The notes under the pieces are model-generated. The model was not told the origin of the DNA and searched no databases. It worked only from the letters and a program-made list of their open reading frames with translations. From assembly GCA_036939975.1 (NCBI GenBank), contig JALLPB010002332.1, positions 1 through 13,255 on the forward strand: 13,255 bases of DNA, given 5' to 3'. Shown one piece after another: positions 3,945 through 13,198 of the stretch (its first letter is position 1; every line of letters starts with the position of its first letter). Source of the DNA: Cyclostephanos tholiformis. Taxonomy: Eukaryota > Bacillariophyta > Thalassiosirophyceae > Thalassiosirales > Thalassiosiraceae. Made by a program: the position numbers and the translations under genes.

Positions 3945-4199
3945 ATGAGAAGGGTCGGGACTCGACAAAACCATCGCCAAGATGACAATAACAAGCCCCT
4001 TGATGAGGGCGCCACTGTTCCCCCAGCCCCTCCAGATAAAAAACACACCTTCTCCATCCCAACACACCGCCCTCATCGAACTCTAAACCTCACGGACAAT
4101 TGTGGGAAGTGGGCTCATCATCGATGGGATGAGATTGTGGAGTACATGGTACATGGAGATGAAACTCTTTTGGATGGCATTCCCGGAAGAGTGGATTGA
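3945..4199 (+). pseudogene. Out-of-frame N-terminal segment of the piggyBac-like transposase
   Basis: Frame 3 is open here and encodes a Pro-rich stretch (DEGATVPPAPPDKKHTF) followed by RWDEIVEYMVHGDET. The latter resembles the W-plus-acidic segment just before the FP.-W..-V...TN block in piggyBac proteins. That next block (MAFPEEWIETVLISATNG) is in frame 1 from about 4174. A shift of +1 near the short T run at 4160-4175 would connect the two, so the gene is broken here, unless a splice or sequencing error explains it. From about 3826, frame 1 also carries a protein-like stretch (PDVEGVDHPALQIIVPNV) ending at a TGA at 3946, another sign of decay upstream. Confidence 0.45.
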
Positions 4200-5517
4200 G
4201 ACCGTTTTGATCTCCGCAACGAATGGGCATCTGACAAATAGGATGACGCTGGGGGAGTTTTATAAGTGGCTTGGATGCAACTTTTTTATGGCGTGTTTTC
4301 AAGGGATTTTGGACCGAGAAAGCTGGTGGTCGACAAGGCCGGTGTCAATGTATGACGGCGTACCTTTTTGCCTGGGAAGTGTGATGTCCCTCTTCCGTTA
4401 CAAAGAAATCACCATGGCAATACGGTTTACGGATGTGGCAGCATCAACTCTCGAAAGAGACGGCTATGTGGATAGGTTCCATGAGGTACGTAATATGCTT
4501 GACATGTTCAATGAATATTATGCCTCAAACTATCACCCGTCTTGGTTGAATGTTCTCGACGAGTCGATGAGCTCTTGGCTGAGCAAATTCTGCCCGGGGT
4601 TCATGTGTGTCCCCCGGAAACCTCACCCGTTTGGCAACGAGTACCACTCGATTGCCGATGGGGATGACGGGAAGCCGATAATGTGGCGAGTGAAATTGGT
4701 CGAAGGGAAGGATCGGCCGAAGAAGGTCAGTGGGGAGTGGGTGTTTCCAACGGAGTTCCCTGGGTTTGGTAAGACGACCACGACAATGTTGGAAATGACC
4801 AAGCCAATTCATGGGAAGGGCAAGGTCGTGGTGGGGGACAGTGGCTTTTGTGTCAGGGAGGGGGTGATCGAATGCCACAAGCGTGGCGTATGGTTCCAGG
4901 CTTACATGAAGAAGAGGAGAAATTGGCCACGTGGGGTGCCGGGAGATGCGATCGATAGCTACTTCGAAGACCTTCCTCTCGGCCACTGCGAGACCCTTGT
5001 CACAGAACACAACAATGTCGAGTTTCGCGTCCACTGTTGTCGGGATTCGAAATATGTTTCAAAGATAATGTCGACCCATGGCATGCTTGAGATGTGGGAG
5101 GACCATCTGACGTATCGGAAAGTTGATGGGAGCTGGAAGAGCATCAAATATATGGAGCCCTTTAGCCGCTACTCACATGCGAAGCATTGGGTTGATGGTG
5201 TGAACAATTGTCATCATGATCCGATTGGTTTGGAAGAGGTTTGGGGGACAAAGTGGTGGGCAATGCGGCAGTTCACTTTCTTATGTTCGGTCGCTGAGGT
5301 GAATATGGTCCAGTCTTGGGCACGGGGGAGGAATGAAGTGACAACGCCCCAGCTCAATTTTCATCGGAAATTGGCACAACAAATGATGGAGAATACTATT
5401 GATGAGCCACTGGTCCCACAGTTGCCTCCCATGTGCACTAGGAGGCCTAGAATCACCGAACATAAGTGTCCAAAGCAAAAGAGAGGGGAGGGAATGTGGG
5501 ATTTTTCTTATCGCTGA
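4102..5517 (+). CDS. piggyBac-like transposase, catalytic core (DDE_Tnp_1_7 type)
   Basis: This frame encodes the core of a piggyBac-family transposase, a nuclear RNase H-fold enzyme that cuts and pastes its element at TTAA sites. Numbered from codon 4102 (a GTG; the first ATG is at 4129), the acidic catalytic positions are most likely D153 in NVLDESMSSW, D246 in VVGDSGFCV and D365 in KHWVDGVNNCHHDP. The segments GNEYHSIADG, MWRVKLVEGKDRP and LEEVWGTKWWAMRQFTF are of the type I associate with diatom piggyBac-like proteins. The core ends in TGA at 5515-5517, just before the Cys-rich C-terminal domain, which continues downstream after that stop. With the N-terminal frameshift as well, it probably gives no active enzyme, although its core is unbroken for over 450 codons. 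It lies inside the 18-bp inverted repeats. Confidence 0.75.
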   Translation: MGSGLIIDGMRLWSTWYMEMKLFWMAFPEEWIETVLISATNGHLTNRMTLGEFYKWLGCNFFMACFQGILDRESWWSTRPVSMYDGVPFCLGSVMSLFRYKEITMAIRFTDVAASTLERDGYVDRFHEVRNMLDMFNEYYASNYHPSWLNVLDESMSSWLSKFCPGFMCVPRKPHPFGNEYHSIADGDDGKPIMWRVKLVEGKDRPKKVSGEWVFPTEFPGFGKTTTTMLEMTKPIHGKGKVVVGDSGFCVREGVIECHKRGVWFQAYMKKRRNWPRGVPGDAIDSYFEDLPLGHCETLVTEHNNVEFRVHCCRDSKYVSKIMSTHGMLEMWEDHLTYRKVDGSWKSIKYMEPFSRYSHAKHWVDGVNNCHHDPIGLEEVWGTKWWAMRQFTFLCSVAEVNMVQSWARGRNEVTTPQLNFHRKLAQQMMENTIDEPLVPQLPPMCTRRPRITEHKCPKQKRGEGMWDFSYR

Positions 5518-5749
5518 TTCAAACATGTGGCATCGGAGTATGTGTGCCTACGGTGCCATGGATGCCAAAAAAAAGATCAGAACCTACTGCTCATGTGACC
5601 CAACAACACCCCTGTGCACTGGGTGCCANAGTATGTGTGCCTACGGTGCCATGGATGCCAAAAAAAAGATCAGAACCTACTGCTCATGTGACCCAACAAC
5701 ACCCCTGTGCACTGGGTGCCATGCATTGCATGTCAATGAGGTTGAATAA
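5518..5749 (+). pseudogene. C-terminal Cys-rich (cross-brace-like) domain remnant of the piggyBac transposase
   Basis: piggyBac transposases end in a Cys/His zinc-binding domain that helps bind the element's ends. After the TGA at 5515, frame 1 continues with FKHVASEYVCLRCHGCQKK. The second half, KIRTYCSCDPTTPLCTGCHA, is in frame 2. The change falls in a run of eight A (about 5567-5574), so one extra A would explain it. The reading is further confused by an exact 92-bp duplication with an N between the copies. Counting one copy only, the domain has the expected CX2CX2C, then YCXC, then CX2C order and stops at TAA 5747-5749. Stop and A-run errors could be real decay or assembly errors near the N. 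Confidence 0.6.
5537..5721. repeat. Exact 92-bp direct duplication around a single N (probable assembly scar)
   Basis: 5537-5628 and 5630-5721 are identical over 92 bases and separated only by the N at 5629. Two contig ends that overlap by 92 bases but were joined without merging would give exactly this. Copy plus N is 93 bases, so frame is kept. It duplicates part of the zinc-binding tail of the transposase. Confidence 0.85.
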
Positions 5750-6031: not shown

Positions 6032-6036
6032 CCCAT
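6032..6036 (+). repeat. Copia target-site duplication (left copy)
   Basis: CCCAT, repeated at 11590-11594 immediately beyond the other LTR. Five bases is the usual length for Copia integrases. Confidence 0.85.
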
Positions 6037-6212
6037 TATTATTCATTGACACTAGAAAGTTGTTGTAATTTGGTGATTACTGAATTAATGAGCAACTACT
6101 TTATAATCGTCCAAAAAAACCCAGTCGGATTTAAATATTCGGTTTGAATATTTATCTCCAGTTTTCATCAGTTTTCTGGTTTGCCTTAAACGATATTATT
6201 GACCGTTTAACA
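6037..6212 (-). repeat. 3' LTR of the Copia element
   Basis: 176 bp, matching 11414-11589 base for base apart from 7 substitutions and no indels. In element orientation it starts TGTTAAACGG directly after the short purine stretch CAAGGGTG (weak polypurine tract, 6213-6220). It supplies the stop codon of pol (TAA, 6196-6198). Confidence 0.95.
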
Positions 6213-9200
6213 CACCCTTGCAGTAAACTGCAGAAACACTCCGCTCCTTAAGTACCCTCTGACGTAATTTTAATAATTCCGCTACACGGGTCAAATACTC
6301 CCCCCGTATATTCCGATGATGCGCAGGCGAATGATACTTCGTAAAATAATCGGCAAGGTTAGTCTTACCGGGTTTCCAGTAAATTTTAAATTGCCCTTGC
6401 TGCTCGCGATCTAACAACCATTCAAAACGCATATCCATCGCTTTCGTACGCTTCGGACGCACACGCGAGTTTATCACTCCCTCTGTGGTAGAATTATCTG
6501 TTTGGATTGGTGTTCGGGGTTGCGGATAGCCCATGTCCACCAACATCCGTCGTAAATATACCGCTTCTTTGGCATTGACGAATAAAGCTCCCAGCTCGGC
6601 CTCTGCTGCGGATGACATCACCGCGTCCATGATTTGCGCAATTGTGAGTACTGGCCCATTATTTTGTGGATTCTGAATATCGCTGGATAAGAAGAAATGC
6701 CCCCCCACCCGGCTTCGTGACTTGCTTTCATTAAGGTAACCCGCGTCGCTGTGCACTGCAAGGACCATGTCACTTGCATGATAAGTTATAATTGCTTCCT
6801 CTTGACTTGCCGCGTAATCGAGCAGCTGTCTTACCCTTTCCATTGTCTTTTGCGTCGGGGCTGCTTGCTGCGTCGCAATTGCATTCAACGCCACAAGCAT
6901 AGTAGGATCTACCGCGCGAGCATAATATAACAAAGTGCCGACGACTACTTGCACAAATTTATGCCCTTCTTTACTCAGTGGCGCAGATGGCACCTCAACC
7001 TCAACATATTGCGCTTTGGCTCCATAGCTCGGCGCCACGTGCGGATACGGTGAGTTTTGCACCTTTTTTGGCTGATCATGCCCAAACCTCTTCAGCGCTT
7101 TGTCTATGTAACCCGGCATTGAGAGATGGACCCTTCTATTGTCGTAATCCCAATCGAAATTTATTCCAATATACTTACTCCCCGTCCAATCTTCCGAGAT
7201 GTCATAATGCTCCTTCAAGATATTTATGAGATGCATTGCGTGTTCTTTGCCCACGTATTTAACTCCGAAATCGTCAACGACAAGAGTGAAACTGATTGGT
7301 CGAGTTTTATGAGTCCACAGCCCTGGCACAGCTTTACTTTGTGAGTAGCCATCCTTGTTTAGCCGTTCTTCTAATAATTGCTGTGCTAATATTCCTGCTT
7401 GCGGAAGTCCATACATTCCTTTTCGGATCTCGACGTAGACATATCCATCAACAACCTTTTCCTTGAGATTATATTCGTCAATAATTTCCTGTGGCACTTG
7501 GTCAATGCTGATGCGCACATATTCGAATCTTGTCATGGGTGTGTTCAGATAGAAATTTTTGACGTCCAATGTCATGTACCGGGCTCCTCGGGTAGAAACA
7601 ACGCTGTTGAGATGTATTTTCACCAAGGTAAGATCTGCCGTTGGCGTGCCGACATCTCCTGGATAGTTTACTTTGTCGCTGCCGACTACTAATCGCGTTC
7701 TATGCACCTCCGCTTTGTTAGGCTTTAATTCACACACGAACTTTGCGTAGGTGACGTCCTTCCACCGATCCGATGGAATCTGATTTTTGTGGATGAAAAA
7801 AATTGTATCGGTTCCCTTTATTCGCCCTCCGACACCTTGAGCTAACCTTCCAAACTCGTTTGCTGATGAGTGCAGCCACGTTTCTTGATACTTCGGGTGA
7901 GTAATCAATTTCTGATATTTGAGGAACCTGCCTGTTTCTTCGTCAAAAATTTCATTAACACTTTCAATTATAGCTGGTCCGTCGTCGACAATCGCTTGTG
8001 CCAATTCAGTCATGTCAGTAAGTTTTGTTCTACCCCCCACTGCTCGTGAGTGAATGTTTGTGAGCCGCGCCGTGCCCATTCGTACTGCAGATTTTGATCG
8101 AGTTGTTGGACCCGTCACACTAACTTTGTTATCAACATTTTGTTGCAATGCATTACGTGCTCTTGGATGTTTCTCTTTTTCGATCACCCTTGGAGGTGTC
8201 ACTCTCTTTCCCACCCTTGGAGCTTGCACTGTCTTGGTGCCAGCTTCGTCTTCCAAAGGTGCGTTCATTCGTGACTGTATCGTCAACTTTGCCTGTAAAT
8301 CGTCAGCAAATCTCACTTTTTTCTCCTGTGCTTTTGTTTCACCATTCTCTTTTCCCAAACCGCTCAAAATCTCGTTCATTTTTCGTAGAACTCCCATCTC
8401 TTCATTCCCTTTGGTGTTCACCCGTCGACGAAGCGCAGATGAGAGATCTTCAATCGCTTTGATCAACTGATCTTCCGCCGTTACTGTGGGCTGCGTGATA
8501 TATCGGTGCTGGAAAGTGACCGTGTCGGAAATCCTCTCTGTTCGTGTCTTCTTGCAAAAAATTTTGTGACATCGATAATGCTCCAGTGATGTTCCAACAT
8601 ACCAACCGGTAAGTGATCGTGGATCCCACGTTCTTCGTCTATTTGTACTCTTGTGCATCTCCACTGTGCAACCTAACGGTCCTAGAGGTGTCTTGTTGTA
8701 GTCGAAGTTCCCGTGCACATGCTGATATGCGGATATGGATGGATTCTTTTTCGACTGCCGTAACAGATTCAACGTCAGCTCCGCCTGCGGTAGTAGTCTG
8801 TCCCACAGATTCATTGGAAAAGAATGGTCGACGCCCGCCAGGATTGCAATGAAGTGACTCTTAAAAGTTTGGATTGCTCGCTCAGCCAAATTTCTGCGGT
8901 GAGTATCCGGAGGCACCAATTGTAAGTCACAGTTCTCTTTGATAGCCGACTTGAATGCCTCCGATGCTTCATTGTCCAGTATGTGCAGCTTTGGTTTGTT
9001 TTCCCTTCCTCGACTTACTCGCGACCACAATTTCTGATATGCAGGGATCATCTGATTGTCATTGTGGCTCCGGATTGGTTCAACAGCGATGTAGTTCGCA
9101 TTGACATCGAAAAAGCACATAATCGACGTGTTTCCTCTGCTGGACTGTACTGGTAATCTTCCCGTTTGATCCGAGTAAACTGTTTCGCCCGCATTAAAAA

Positions 9201-10176
9201 TCTTCACCATGATGTTCTGCTTTGCCAACGTTCGCGTGAGTTCTGTTTCTTCTGTTACTGTCTCTGTCGGTAGTTTTATTTTTGTGGATCTAACATTTTG
9301 ACGCTGTTTCTTCATGTGTCCTTTTTGCGTCTCCACCGACTCCGGAAAATGCTTGTTGACGTTCTCGAAGGTAATTCCTGGCCAACTCTGATAGTGTCCG
9401 TTGTGTATTGCTTTCAACCACGAGTCCTTTGTTGGGAAACCCGCTGCTGCATGAAGATATCGAATTGTTTGAGGTATGGATGGTAAGCTGTACACGTTTG
9501 CTGCCGTGTCTTCCTTGATCCGAGCAATTTCAACTTGTCGTGGTTGCTGTGTTGATAATCTCCACAGCCCATTTGGATCACGCCACCCTTTGAGGACTGG
9601 CTTACTGTAAGTCTTGATGCGGAAAGTGTTTTTTGCATGAATCGTTATGCCATCTCCTTTAGGATGAAAAATGGTCGTGTAATTTGCATCGGCCAATTTA
9701 CCGACGCTGACCAACGAGTTTGGTCGCAAACTCGGAAGTACGTCAGCCTTTCGTGCTTCGGTCGAAAGTGAATCGAATGGCAGCATAGTTGTGTGAGTTG
9801 CTTGTATGGTAGATCCATCAGGTAATCTTACTATTTTGCTTGATGTCCCTGTGATAGGTAGCCCCTCCTCTGGCCGCACAAAGTTTGATGTTGCTCCCGA
9901 GTCCAAGACCATGGAGCTAACGTTTGGTTGCGGTGCTCCGGGTTTACTGTTGAGACTGATGTGCTTGCTTACCCAATCTTGGATAATTGTTTTCAGATTT
10001 CGCATTACCTTTGAGTCAGTGATATTGTTTACGTTTGCGTTTTGTTCATTTGACGGAGTGGAGATTCCGTCGGCTTCGGTTTCCTCATCGTCGTCTATGA
10101 GCGGGGCCCAGTAGTTTGCAGACAGCGCGTAAGTCAAATGTGTTTCTATTTTACTTACTGATGCATATTTTTGCAA
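6196..10176 (-). CDS. pol: Pol polyprotein: protease, integrase, reverse transcriptase, RNase H
   Basis: A 1326-residue Copia-type Pol. Landmarks, numbered from codon 10174-10176 (a TTG): aspartic protease LDSGATSNF (D92); integrase with D336 (VYSDQTGRLP), D401 (HILDNEAS) and E432 (RNLAERAIQTF); reverse transcriptase with D871 (TLDVKNFYLNTPM) and VVDDFG (D968, D969); RNase H with D1144 (VHSDAGY), E1192/E1194 (SSAAEAEL) and D1227 (QTDNS), then ADYFTKYH near 1275. The integrase N-terminal zinc region has H242 and H258 but no CX2C; the expected place reads ETQKGHMKK. There is no ATG until residue 58 (10003-10005). The frame is open upstream to the gag stop and is the same frame as gag, so Pol is probably made as a Gag-Pol readthrough product. 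Its last codons lie in the 3' LTR. No stops or shifts were seen. Confidence 0.95.
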   Translation of the reverse strand: MQKYASVSKIETHLTYALSANYWAPLIDDDEETEADGISTPSNEQNANVNNITDSKVMRNLKTIIQDWVSKHISLNSKPGAPQPNVSSMVLDSGATSNFVRPEEGLPITGTSSKIVRLPDGSTIQATHTTMLPFDSLSTEARKADVLPSLRPNSLVSVGKLADANYTTIFHPKGDGITIHAKNTFRIKTYSKPVLKGWRDPNGLWRLSTQQPRQVEIARIKEDTAANVYSLPSIPQTIRYLHAAAGFPTKDSWLKAIHNGHYQSWPGITFENVNKHFPESVETQKGHMKKQRQNVRSTKIKLPTETVTEETELTRTLAKQNIMVKIFNAGETVYSDQTGRLPVQSSRGNTSIMCFFDVNANYIAVEPIRSHNDNQMIPAYQKLWSRVSRGRENKPKLHILDNEASEAFKSAIKENCDLQLVPPDTHRRNLAERAIQTFKSHFIAILAGVDHSFPMNLWDRLLPQAELTLNLLRQSKKNPSISAYQHVHGNFDYNKTPLGPLGCTVEMHKSTNRRRTWDPRSLTGWYVGTSLEHYRCHKIFCKKTRTERISDTVTFQHRYITQPTVTAEDQLIKAIEDLSSALRRRVNTKGNEEMGVLRKMNEILSGLGKENGETKAQEKKVRFADDLQAKLTIQSRMNAPLEDEAGTKTVQAPRVGKRVTPPRVIEKEKHPRARNALQQNVDNKVSVTGPTTRSKSAVRMGTARLTNIHSRAVGGRTKLTDMTELAQAIVDDGPAIIESVNEIFDEETGRFLKYQKLITHPKYQETWLHSSANEFGRLAQGVGGRIKGTDTIFFIHKNQIPSDRWKDVTYAKFVCELKPNKAEVHRTRLVVGSDKVNYPGDVGTPTADLTLVKIHLNSVVSTRGARYMTLDVKNFYLNTPMTRFEYVRISIDQVPQEIIDEYNLKEKVVDGYVYVEIRKGMYGLPQAGILAQQLLEERLNKDGYSQSKAVPGLWTHKTRPISFTLVVDDFGVKYVGKEHAMHLINILKEHYDISEDWTGSKYIGINFDWDYDNRRVHLSMPGYIDKALKRFGHDQPKKVQNSPYPHVAPSYGAKAQYVEVEVPSAPLSKEGHKFVQVVVGTLLYYARAVDPTMLVALNAIATQQAAPTQKTMERVRQLLDYAASQEEAIITYHASDMVLAVHSDAGYLNESKSRSRVGGHFFLSSDIQNPQNNGPVLTIAQIMDAVMSSAAEAELGALFVNAKEAVYLRRMLVDMGYPQPRTPIQTDNSTTEGVINSRVRPKRTKAMDMRFEWLLDREQQGQFKIYWKPGKTNLADYFTKYHSPAHHRNIRGEYLTRVAELLKLRQRVLKERSVSAVYCKGVLNGQ

Positions 10177-10209
10177 CTCTGTTTCTAACTGGGGCCCCTC
10201 GCACCGTCA
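10177..10209 (-). promoter_or_regulatory. Candidate UGA readthrough site between gag and pol
   Basis: In element orientation gag ends ACC TGA, followed by CGG TGC GAG GGG CCC CAG, and the frame stays open directly into pol. UGA followed by CGG is one of the established leaky contexts (seen in several plant RNA viruses, usually with a 3' stem). The self-complementary GGGGCCCC lies 9 bases after the stop and could nucleate structure. Readthrough would give a Gag-Pol of about 1717 residues. Confidence 0.55.
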
Positions 10210-11349
10210 GGTACTCTTCACCGACTTCCACCCGTCCGGCCTTTTGTCTGCATTTGTAGGCAACTCCCAGCATTGATCAGCTGTTCGATTTGGATGCTTT
10301 CGATTGCAGTGCGGGCAAGTCGGAGCATTCTTTTTCTTTTCTTCCCAGGCTTTCTTCCTTTCTTCCCTTTTATTGGTTCCGGATGCTGAGTTGTTGGTCG
10401 ATGACGCAGGTTTGTTGGCTAAGAGAGCAGCGGTAAGTTTCTCCATCGCTTCATTATTTGACTTGATGAGAATTTCGATTTGCTTCGACTGCTTTTCCGT
10501 GAGTTCGGCAACGAGCTCCTCTGTCGCTTGCGCCAACTCTTCGACTAAGTTTGCTGACGCATGTCCCGTTGCTCTTGCCGTTGTCTCCTGCCTGTTGAGC
10601 TTTGCATACTCAGCGCACATCACCACTTTCAGGTTTGCATAGGTCTGCGCGAGCTGTGGCCGTGCTTCCCATTCGCGAATTGCCGGGTCAAAATCTCCAG
10701 CTTCTTTAAAACACTTGAGTGCCTTCGCCATCATCGCACGTTCGTCGACTTGGACATTTGCACGTGCTAACTGCCTCCGCGCTTTGTCGACTCGGTTGAA
10801 GTATTTGGTTGGCACCTCGCCTGCGTTCCAGGGTGAATCGCATTCTGCCAGAAGCGCCGTAATATCAATGTAATCCATTGAACCCCAGCGATCCCGAAGG
10901 TGAGTAAGCATTTGCAGTGGTGTCACGTTCAAGTACGCAATTCCTTCGTCGCGAATCTCTAACAAGAAATCCTCTTCTACCGCTTGCAAGATCAAGTCCT
11001 TGAGACCCTTACTGACTCCCACACACGTTTGAAATTGAACAATTAATGCCTTGTGCTCGGCTTCTCGTTGCGCTCGTTGTACCGCGGGAATTGGGCCTTG
11101 TGGATAGTGACCAGGATTTACCGGAATGATGAATGGAGTTCCCGGCGCGAACAATTCGTAGTCGGCGACACTCTTTACCAACCCTGCATGACCGTGAGCC
11201 CCTCCCCCCAATTCGGATAGGAAAGATGATGCAATCGCAGTTAACTCCTCGTCTAACTTGTCGAGGTCCTTGTTGGTCGGCTGACCGAAAATCTTGGTCA
11301 CTGTGCATTCCGCTACTGCCTTGCGTGTCTCTTGTTCCGTAATCGTCAT
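10207..11349 (-). CDS. gag: Gag (capsid-nucleocapsid) polyprotein
   Basis: 380 residues from ATG at 11347-11349 (G at -3) to TGA at 10207-10209. It forms the virus-like particle that packages the element RNA. The body is mostly helical-looking and rich in Glu, Lys and Ala, as in Copia Gag (UBN2/Retrotran_gag type). A Lys-rich linker (KREERKKAWEEKKKNAPT) leads to a zinc knuckle at C345, C348, H352 and C360, spaced CX2CX3HX7C and followed by WELP. This differs from the standard CX2CX4HX4C but matches the form I associate with diatom Copia elements. The 64-base leader between 5' LTR and ATG holds the presumed primer-binding site. The stop context is TGA CGG, with pol following in frame after only 10 codons. 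Confidence 0.9.
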   Translation of the reverse strand: MTITEQETRKAVAECTVTKIFGQPTNKDLDKLDEELTAIASSFLSELGGGAHGHAGLVKSVADYELFAPGTPFIIPVNPGHYPQGPIPAVQRAQREAEHKALIVQFQTCVGVSKGLKDLILQAVEEDFLLEIRDEGIAYLNVTPLQMLTHLRDRWGSMDYIDITALLAECDSPWNAGEVPTKYFNRVDKARRQLARANVQVDERAMMAKALKCFKEAGDFDPAIREWEARPQLAQTYANLKVVMCAEYAKLNRQETTARATGHASANLVEELAQATEELVAELTEKQSKQIEILIKSNNEAMEKLTAALLANKPASSTNNSASGTNKREERKKAWEEKKKNAPTCPHCNRKHPNRTADQCWELPTNADKRPDGWKSVKST

Positions 11350-11399
11350 TACGTTAAAATAATTTGAATGAATGTGATTTCGATTTACCGTTCGTAAGG

Positions 11400-11463
11400 A
11401 ATTCAGTAATCACTATTATTCATTGACACTAGAAAGTTGTTGTAATACGGTGATTACTGAATT
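11400..11463 (-). promoter_or_regulatory. Primer-binding-site region with 14-bp stem to the LTR (possible self-priming)
   Basis: In element orientation the first 14 bases after the 5' LTR (11413 down to 11400) are GTGATTACTGAATT. Inside the LTR, at 11463-11450, is AATTCAGTAATCAC, its perfect complement; 36 bases separate the arms. The downstream arm begins exactly at the LTR boundary, where a reverse-transcription primer must anneal. No TGG start, expected for pairing to a tRNA 3' CCA end, is present. Both LTRs keep the inner arm unchanged (low copy at 6073-6086). Confidence 0.6.
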
Positions 11464-11589
11464 AATGAGCAACTACTTTCTAATCGTCCAAAAAAACCCA
11501 GTCGGATTTAAATATTCGGTTTGAATATTTAACTCCAGTTTTCGTCAGTTTTCTGGTTCGCCTTAAACGATATTATTGACCATTTAACA
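11414..11589 (-). repeat. 5' LTR of the Copia element
   Basis: 176 bp; carries the promoter and, if the LTR works as in relatives, the RNA start. In element orientation an AT-rich TATTTAAAT (11514-11506) is a TATA-like candidate, and CTCATTA (11469-11463) resembles an initiator; the distance between them (about 45-50) is longer than usual, so the start is not fixed. The LTR is followed inward by the presumed primer-binding site. Confidence 0.95.
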
Positions 11590-11594
11590 CCCAT
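11590..11594 (+). repeat. Copia target-site duplication (right copy)
   Basis: CCCAT, identical to 6032-6036. It is followed by AATTATTCG, which restores the mariner-like end motif once Copia is removed. Confidence 0.85.
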
Positions 11595-12170
11595 AATTAT
11601 TCGCACTTGTTGATGTACAGACTGTCCCATAATTATTCGTATTTATTAATACAAACTCCTAATGGATTCCTATGTCATGAATCAACTACGCCAAAATTTT
11701 TTTCTTCTTTTTTTTTTGTAAGAAAAGAACCTTCTCTCAACTCTCCACACCTCTCACACATCTTCATCAAAACAAGATGAAAAAGTACCATACAATAAGT
11801 TTTGGGATTCTTAAGATACGAAAAGGGTAGAACATGTCATTTGTTTTGTTGGAACACCGATTTTTTTCCATCTGGGCTACGGTACCTATGGTACTCTATC
11901 CTACAAACTCTGTCCCAAAATTATTCGTACATTATGCCGTACAGACGGGTCCCACATTTTTTGTACATTTTCTAGTACTTGTTTTAATGAATTCCTAAGT
12001 TAAAATGCAATTTTGGCGAAAGTTGCTTTGTGTATTCTTAGTGCAGACCTGTTCATACATAGGAATAGATACATAGGATAAGAAAGATGAAAATCATCAT
12101 TTTTTTGAGGTGCACAATATTTTTTGACAACTTGGCCTATGGTAGCTACGCTAATCTATCCTATGAGGGA
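11595..12170 (+). repeat. Two diverged ~325-bp direct units bounded by CTGTCCCAWAATTATTCG
   Basis: With Copia removed, a doublet of the end motif (virtual start 11586, then 11622, 36 apart) is echoed by a doublet at 11910 and about 11946 (38 apart). Matching landmarks follow each, offset about 325: TACAAACTCCTAATGGATTCCT against TACTTGTTTTAATGAATTCCT; and GGGCTACGGTACCTATGGTA before 11909 against GGCCTATGGTAGCTACGCTA before 12170. The second unit is shorter. No reading frame of note. Confidence 0.5.
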
Positions 12171-12184
12171 AAAAAGCTGATAGG

Positions 12185-12518
12185 GGTAATAAAATTGCGG
12201 CGCGATGTTGTAGTTTTCATAATTCGCCGATGCGACTATTGGATTGAGCGCAAATTTTAGGGTTTTTTATGTACTTGAGTCATCCTTTGAATGTTAACAC
12301 AGCCCTTAATCCAAGCAAATAACCGCAAATGTACAAATAATTGTGGGACAGAGTAGTACAGGAAAAACATTGTTTTAGAAGGAATTAAAATGCGGCATGA
12401 TTTTGCCGTTTTCAGATTTTGGCATTATCACCGTTCAGCATTTTTTATAAACTTGGACCATCAGCTGAAAATTAACACAGCTCTTAATCCTGACAAATAA
12501 TTATGGGACAGAGTAGTA
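12185..12518 (-). repeat. Two diverged 140-175-bp units ending in the inverted CTACTCTGTCCC motif
   Basis: ATTGTGGGACAGAGTAGTA (ending 12358) and ATTATGGGACAGAGTAGTA (ending 12518) are 160 apart. The sequence before each also matches: ACACAGCYCTTAATCC, AAAATTGCGGCGCGATG against AAAATGCGGCATGATT, and a TTTTTTAT block. Orientation is opposite to the units at 11595-12170, so the cluster as a whole has inverted ends. Confidence 0.55.
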
Positions 12519-13198
12519 TTATGTGACTGCTACGGTCTGGCCATAGACCATATGATATGTACCCACAATGTTGTATCCACTTGTATTTGATCAAAATATT
12601 TTGCCTAAAGCCCATGTTATCCGTATTTAGCAACCAGAATCACCTTCAAGAAACAAGATCATCATCGCTTCTCTGGCGACTAACATAGCTCCACATGCGC
12701 TCATCGCAGCGCCATTCGCGAATAAATTTTGGAAGCGCGTGGCGATTTAAAGTGGAATGGATCGCTCAAATGTCGTCCAACTCCAGCCACGGCGCAAAAT
12801 AAGGCCAATAGAGTGGAGCTCATGGAGAGCCGTATTGTATTTAATAGAGAGAGAGTAATTTTTTTTACTCTTACTCAGGCTGTGATTTCTTTGAGCGTGT
12901 AGGCAAAAAACGTTTAGACATAAAAAATTGGGTTATGTGTATCGCTCTGCTAAGCTTGTAATTGTTCGTGTTTTTGTTGTGTGTGTGTGCATATAATGAC
13001 TCAAAATCTCCGTAATTTTTTTGTTTCTGCGTTTTATGTTTTATGGGCACGTAAAATGGCCCCAATCGTAGAAATTTTATGCACACATATAACATAAAAC
13101 GCATAAATAAACATATACGTGGAACCTGCAGTTACTTAGCTAAACCGGCCACAAAACACAAAAACACACGCACATCACATGCAACAACCAACAACAAG
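12519..13198. other. AT-rich spacer without a recognisable gene
   Basis: No protein family was recognised on either strand. Contents are a short hairpin (GGTCT/AGACC, 12534-12549), an alternating GT run at about 12978-12989, a T-rich tract near 12860 flanked by GAGTAA/TTACTC, and an A/C-rich stretch from 13150 to 13198 that resembles a 5' untranslated leader. Confidence 0.5.

Follow-up and report, generated by a model that had tools for sequence, protein, structure and literature searches.

A covarying helix between the LTR and the primer-binding site suggests self-primed reverse transcription in copia-type retrotransposons of a diatom

How does a copia-type LTR retrotransposon of Cyclostephanos tholiformis prime its minus-strand DNA, when the 14 bases next to its 5' LTR are complementary to a stretch within that same LTR? 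The original prediction was that the RNA of the element folds back and supplies its own primer, as is established for Tf1, in which nt 1-11 of the RNA anneal to the primer-binding site (PBS) and RNase H cuts between nt 11 and 12 (PMC7175516, available text). The whole stretch of DNA analyzed, 13,255 nt long, is referred to here as the window; it is contig C1479 of an assembly of 24.95 Mb and 1,566 contigs, which was the source of both the window copy and its relatives. The element and its parts are located in the window as follows.

6037..11589, minus strand: whole copia-type LTR retrotransposon, 5,553 bp (LTR repeat, SH3-like and RVT_2 domains; ends placed by eye)
11414..11589, minus strand: 5' LTR, 176 bp, first bases TGTTAAATGG, last bases GAATAATA (repeat and TSD, by eye)
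6037..6212, minus strand: 3' LTR, 176 bp (LTR repeat; ends by eye)
11590..11594, minus strand: TSD ATGGG, 5' side (by eye)
6032..6036, minus strand: TSD ATGGG, 3' side (by eye)
11450..11463, minus strand: candidate primer arm P, AATTCAGTAATCAC, inside the 5' LTR
11400..11413, minus strand: candidate primer-binding site P', GTGATTACTGAATT, from the first base after the LTR onward (pairing with P)
6073..6086, minus strand: copy of P in the 3' LTR (14-mer search)
11463..11467, minus strand: CATTA, the form taken here by the CAT[A/T]A motif adjoining P (49 of 51 helices); proposed initiator, putative start at about 11466
6213..6221, minus strand: putative polypurine tract (PPT), GCAAGGGTG, adjoining the 3' LTR
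10207..11349, minus strand: gag ORF, 380 aa, UGA at its end, with the zinc-knuckle-like CPHCNRKHPNRTADQC
6196..10206, minus strand: pol, continuing the frame of gag past the UGA (ORF and domain matches)
11464-11478 with 11424-11438, minus strand: hairpin A, ATTAGAAAGTAGTTG / CAACAACTTTCTAGT, enclosing P (inverted repeat)

The LTR repeat (11411-11590 and 6034-6213) is 96% identical in a self-comparison of the window. RVT_2 was matched at residues 824-1032 of pol (41.2 bits; cut-off, 31.6), identifying a copia-type reverse transcriptase, and an SH3_retrovirus-like domain at residues 500-557 scored 25.6 bits, just under the cut-off of 27. The SH3-like domain, which belongs to the integrase side, precedes the reverse transcriptase, as is the order in copia elements; no integrase-core family was reported in the domain search of the window pol. 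PPT-like sequences (AAGGGTG or AGGGGTG) also precede the 3' LTRs of L091, L024, L093, L095, and L101. Beside the element, a 471-aa ORF (4102-5517, plus strand) with a DDE_Tnp_1_7 match of 119.7 bits resembles a piggyBac transposase, and several diverged copies of a TCTGTCCCATAATTATTCGTA-like motif occupy 11590-12540, the element sitting in one of them. Two identical 92-nt copies with one N between them (5537-5721) look like an assembly joint and not a biological repeat; similar N-joined repeats occur in L029 and L111.

The UGA that closes gag (10209-10207, minus strand) is in frame with pol. At the gag-pol junction, 14 of 21 loci carry a UGA followed by at least 50 in-frame codons, the next codon being CGG in 6, AGG in 5, CAA in 2, and TGG in 1. 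Type C retroviruses and Tj1 express gag-pol by stop-codon readthrough, and gag-pol expression in this group looks like readthrough as well.

In the window copy, all 14 pairs between P (11463-11450) and P' (11413-11400) are Watson-Crick, and the loop between them (11449-11414, minus strand) measures 36 nt, which confirms both the position and the letters of the perfect complement that had originally been noticed. As judged from the LTR ends and TSD positions, read by eye, P' follows the LTR with no base in between; the claim that pairing begins exactly at the inner edge of the LTR is thereby borne out. The chance of 1 in 4^14 attached to the match holds for a single placement, but shuffled PBSs are a fairer measure: the window helix has a score of 14, while the best of 12,000 shuffled PBSs from 60 elements scored 11. 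When the RNA was folded from the putative start at 11466, the minimum-free-energy structure contained all 14 pairs (-19.9 kcal/mol; z = -3.78), and none of 200 shuffles was as good. Folding from a point 24 nt further upstream kept the helix, with a z of -2.05 and 10 of 200 shuffles equally good. Six folds were made; the stretches used for L100, L094 (z = 0.60), and L089 began inside P, and neither L094 nor the others serve as evidence.

Relatives were abundant in the same assembly, which gave at least 17 matches to the LTR and at least 111 to gag. Forty further stretches (37 upstream of gag matches and 3 at places matching the 14-mer) were taken, of which 36 entered a set of 60 scored elements, defined as related copies with the LTR end and PBS both in view. 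Omitted from this set were LTR-only, interrupted, and partial loci (L002, L003, L009, L010, L012, L016, L032, L033, L039, L045, L047, L096, L097, and L118), L090, and second loci of elements already counted. L089 and L090, about 2.6 kb apart on contig C21, are inverted copies of the same LTR-PBS region (P, AATTAAGTAATCAC; PBS, GTGATTACTTAATT).

The arms of the window copy recur unchanged in the close relatives L004 and L005 and are the same over 13 bases in L006. Both sides are altered to match each other in L008 and L011 (AATTCAGTAACAAC/GTTGTTACTGAATT) and likewise in L017 (ATTCAGTTAGAAC/GTTCTAACTGAAT). The L017 gag is 89% identical to that of the window copy over residues 1-169, and a 23-copy gag tree places L017 with the window copy and L007 (support, 95/92; window copy plus L007, 97/89). 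Elsewhere in the clade, within which gag identity falls to about 25%, the arms are strongly different yet complementary (CTTTAGCAATGTC/GACATTGCTAAAG, ATGATAAATAAC/GTTATTTATCAT, and AAATCTAAGAGGTA/TACCTCTTAGATTT). The most divergent group consists of L103, L110, and L112, in which the PBS start TTGGTAAGCA pairs with TGCTTACCAA across a longer loop (48-51). Their PBSs, starting TTGG, also have a 5-nt match to a tRNA 3' end, and the group could be intermediate between tRNA priming and self-priming.

With anchors at the LTR end that had for most of the 60 elements been placed by eye, the pairing already seen, the helix formed with an element's own PBS had a median score of 12, reaching at least 9 in 51 elements and at least 12 in 34. 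Swapped, shuffled, and slid PBSs served as controls. A PBS swapped in from a dissimilar element gave a median of 4 and a maximum of 11, with 20 of 2,832 combinations scoring at least 9. Among 12,000 shuffled PBSs, 20 scored at least 9 (maximum, 11), a contrast that is flattered by kinship among the sequences and for which the number of different pair types is a safer measure. Forty elements are perfect over 10 pairs, and they display 19 different 10-mers, nine of which are mutually at least 4 bases apart. When 35 copies were aligned, pairs formed in 90.1% of 453 cells and changes on both sides occurred at 9 of 13 pairs, although the outermost pair was unpaired in 21 of the 35; the covariation score was 0.456, compared with a mean of 0.110 for shuffled and at most 0.091 for slid arms. 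A second alignment of 12 divergent copies showed both-side changes at 10 of 12 pairs of the P/P' helix, and RNAalifold predicted this helix unaided in both alignments. Over the first 12 positions of the 51 helices (612 cells), 586 pairs are Watson-Crick, 5 are G.U, and 21 are other combinations.

The nine elements with scores below 9 (L007, L013, L015, L081, L082, L099, L102, L107, and L108) have a partial match in the same place. Stop codons are present in the gag matches of six of them (L013, L015, L081, L082, L102, and L107), as well as in those of several high scorers, and decay after insertion is a plausible background to the low scores. Imperfect pairing over the first 10 positions was found in 20 of the 60 copies, some with changes in one arm, a type of change that had been named at the outset as refuting self-priming; it may plausibly reflect decay after insertion or single-base bulges. 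As bulges occur in L099, L102, L106, and L078, P' is not always an exact copy of P. Comparison of sister copies, proposed originally as a check on the pairing, therefore came out in its favor between families, whose arms covary, but not in each individual copy. Overall, it is confirmed that the helix is real, covaries strongly, and extends beyond this one copy.

Among genome contigs, the window pol had one relative outside the assembly, L078. This locus, on a contig filed under a gammaproteobacterial MAG, combines a copia pol with an LTR and another gag-like match, and is apparently eukaryotic DNA that was binned with bacteria. By eye, AATACGTAGCAC following CATT and GTGCTACGCTATT following CTTCATCA form 12 pairs with one bulged base, a helix that the scripted search for at least 9 unbroken pairs did not list. 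Among viral contigs, neither a single pol query nor a pol alignment yielded relatives, and the LTR-PBS pattern had no match. Four viral contigs that matched a PPT-LTR pattern, without a gag or pol match, were rejected as relatives.

The helix is bounded on both sides. Ten 3' regions were available, four of which gave a full LTR pair, two the LTR start only (contig end), one an internal match only, and three no match. The LTR pairs of L093, L094, L095, and L101 place the LTR end at the start of the PBS, within one base of chance extension, so that LTR edge and PBS start coincide in all four families with a usable LTR pair and, by eye, in the window copy. At the other end, 49 of 51 helices have CAT[A/T]A next to P, the first base of which follows the C of the motif by 1-8 bases (by 4 or 5 in 33), and the distance from this motif to the LTR end is 53-55 nt in 31, 44-48 nt in 15, and 66-69 nt in 3. 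We read CAT[A/T]A as a putative initiator that would mark the start of transcription. The oomycete INR (YCAYTYY) was mapped just upstream of the start, and Thalassiosira pseudonana appeared to be without INR+FPR (PMC3599244, available text); given this apparent absence, CAT[A/T]A is a start site that we infer. Since P lies 4-5 nt beyond the C of CAT in most copies, the first 3-4 nt of the presumed RNA would be left unpaired there.

Two further readings of the sequence around the motif were dropped. Most of the nearest relatives have an AT-rich box 44-46 nt upstream of CAT, but no such box was found in 23 of 49 elements and its distance varied, which does not fit a fixed TATA-to-start rule. The resemblance of CTCATAA to the anticodon loop of tRNA-Met was set aside too: both tRNA-Met genes contain this sequence, but it takes no part in PBS pairing, and only the core CAT[A/T]A is kept.

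In our judgment, the window element and its relatives very likely prime minus-strand DNA with their own RNA, in the manner of Tf1. Transcription would start inside CAT[A/T]A, so that the RNA begins with or just before the 9- to 14-nt arm P, and P would fold back onto P', the intervening loop measuring 28-51 nt (in one copy, 14). A cut of the RNA directly behind P, like the one in Tf1, would then release a 3' end that is extended into U5. Plus-strand synthesis would copy P into a new PBS, each round resetting P' to the complement of P. Such resetting would allow the sequence of P to diverge from family to family without loss of its Watson-Crick pairing with P'. It would also lead to sharp ends of complementarity, a preference for Watson-Crick over G.U pairs, and a drifting P, and the pattern seen matches these expectations. 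An LTR-complementary PBS at the LTR edge and changes in both arms, two of the marks of a self-primed element, were both found. Because a covarying helix at the LTR edge stands beside an invariant motif, and because the Tf1 model is established, self-priming is the simplest reading. It is also the best supported, the helix covarying and no long match appearing in an incomplete set of 25 tRNA genes, although one-arm changes in some copies tell against it.

The exact course of self-priming could differ from this model. Hairpin A, whose two arms show matching changes in some relatives (CTAGATTGTAG/CTACAATCTAG in L006, for example), scored at least 8 in 28 of 59 elements (L115 was unscored), compared with 17% of swapped (n = 1,456) and 14% of shuffled (n = 1,180) combinations. 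As its 5' arm lies upstream of CAT, an RNA starting at CAT would contain hairpin A only at its 3' end; a hairpin A at the 5' end would imply a start further upstream and a primer that is longer or cut twice. A start at least 20 nt upstream of CAT would place P in the loop of hairpin A and turn P/P' into a pseudoknot, the primer being cut on both sides or longer than P. The excess of hairpin A over both controls and the AT-rich box of the nearest relatives are consistent with such a start. However, the box is inconstant, about half of the elements have a weak hairpin A or none, and complementarity ends near CAT[A/T]A, whereas a primer longer than P, once copied into the PBS, would be expected to lengthen the pairing; we regard an upstream start as unlikely. 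P' could also pair with the P of another RNA or of the 3' LTR (6073-6086), where the same arm is present, with the RNA circularized or primed in trans. Pairing in cis is favored by the short distance from P to P' and by the way in which the leader folds, and pairing between molecules or ends appears improbable.

A different primer altogether would be a host tRNA or tRNA fragment, with P/P' as a structural U5-PBS stem. Stems near the PBS are known in retroelements, and the tRNA set was incomplete, comprising 30 places in the assembly matched by RF00005 and 25 distinct genes found by ARAGORN over the collected loci. Against these 25 genes, tRNA-Met included, the longest complement of the window PBS was 6 nt (about 6.2 for shuffles), and no match to the anticodon region of tRNA-iMet, the mark of priming by a tRNA half, was found. 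The 60 PBSs reached at most 8 nt in this incomplete set, with a mean best match slightly above that of shuffled PBSs (6.4 versus 6.1), and L103, L110, and L112 have their 5-nt match to a tRNA 3' end. The 14-mer occurs with at most one mismatch at 39 genomic places (control, 3), none of which is inside the 30 tRNA matches. A long tRNA match had been named as grounds for abandoning self-priming, and none appeared, within the limits of 25 genes. Furthermore, at least 19 PBS forms exist within one genome, and a stem under selection alone should show more G.U pairs than 5 in 612; a tRNA primer is thus very doubtful. AT-rich sequence does raise the number of random matches, but the swap, shuffle, and slide controls contradict an origin of the helix by chance, which we consider next to impossible.

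Beyond self-priming as such, we lean toward the view that a large and old stramenopile copia clade, its gags diverged to about 25% identity, left tRNA priming for self-priming. The transcription start at CAT[A/T]A would have become fused to the primer, and the primer, copied into the PBS, would drift without losing its partner. If this is true, it would point to repeated origins of self-priming in copia or to an early one, and we know of no larger self-primed copia lineage. The model predicts transcripts that begin at CAT[A/T]A, strong-stop cDNA with approximately 10-18 nt of LTR-derived RNA, and PBSs that track the LTR. PBS finders that rely on a tRNA match would miss or misplace such sites, and a scarcity of G.U pairs could serve to distinguish, from sequence, a PBS copied from its primer and one merely kept paired by selection.

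Experimental knowledge of how LTR elements escape from host tRNAs comes mainly from Tf1 and its gypsy kin. Some copia elements are primed by a half molecule of tRNA-iMet and have the PBS at the LTR edge; the window element shares with them the superfamily and the position of the PBS but has no tRNA-Met match in it. With the Tf1/sushi group of Ty3/gypsy elements (Tf1, Tf2, and Tj1), in which self-priming is established or implicated, it shares, according to the available descriptions, a PBS complementary to the element's own sequence and, with Tj1, a gag UGA in frame with pol. Those elements have a gypsy-type pol, whereas the pol found here is copia-type, with the SH3-like domain before RVT_2. 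The RNA 5' end and the RNase H cut are known for Tf1, whereas here they are putative.

Among copia elements, the fungal GalEa lineage is without a recognizable tRNA PBS and has in its place a conserved inverted repeat, the Conserved Hairpin Site (PMC5445492). That site is palindromic in itself, and no complementary U5 stretch was found there (PMC5445492); in contrast, GTGATTACTGAATT is not its own reverse complement, and its partner lies in the LTR. Among the 120 listed of 2,070 pol matches, a few are named diatom proteins, from Thalassiosira oceanica, T. exigua, and Skeletonema marinoi among others; these point to a diatom and to a possible link with the CoDi copia elements of diatoms. The available main text of the CoDi paper does not contain "primer binding" or "tRNA" and uses "PBS" only for the buffer (PMC2806351). 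A literature search in which subscription journals were thinly covered found no report of self-priming in copia elements of diatoms or other stramenopiles. The element is best explained as a probable case of a known mechanism, proven so far in another kind of element, in a lineage without an earlier report found.

The original statement that copia has no established case holds for experiments, but self-priming has been proposed for Houba and Osr-1, both of them Ty1/copia elements, and the plant TAR lineage is predicted to use it (PMC6317226, available text). By description, TAR elements resemble the window element in belonging to the copia superfamily and in having an LTR segment complementary to the PBS; they differ in residing in plants and in that self-priming was predicted there from a match of at least 10 bp and here from covariation (PMC6317226). 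What is new here is the lineage and the covariation, self-priming in copia itself having already been proposed.
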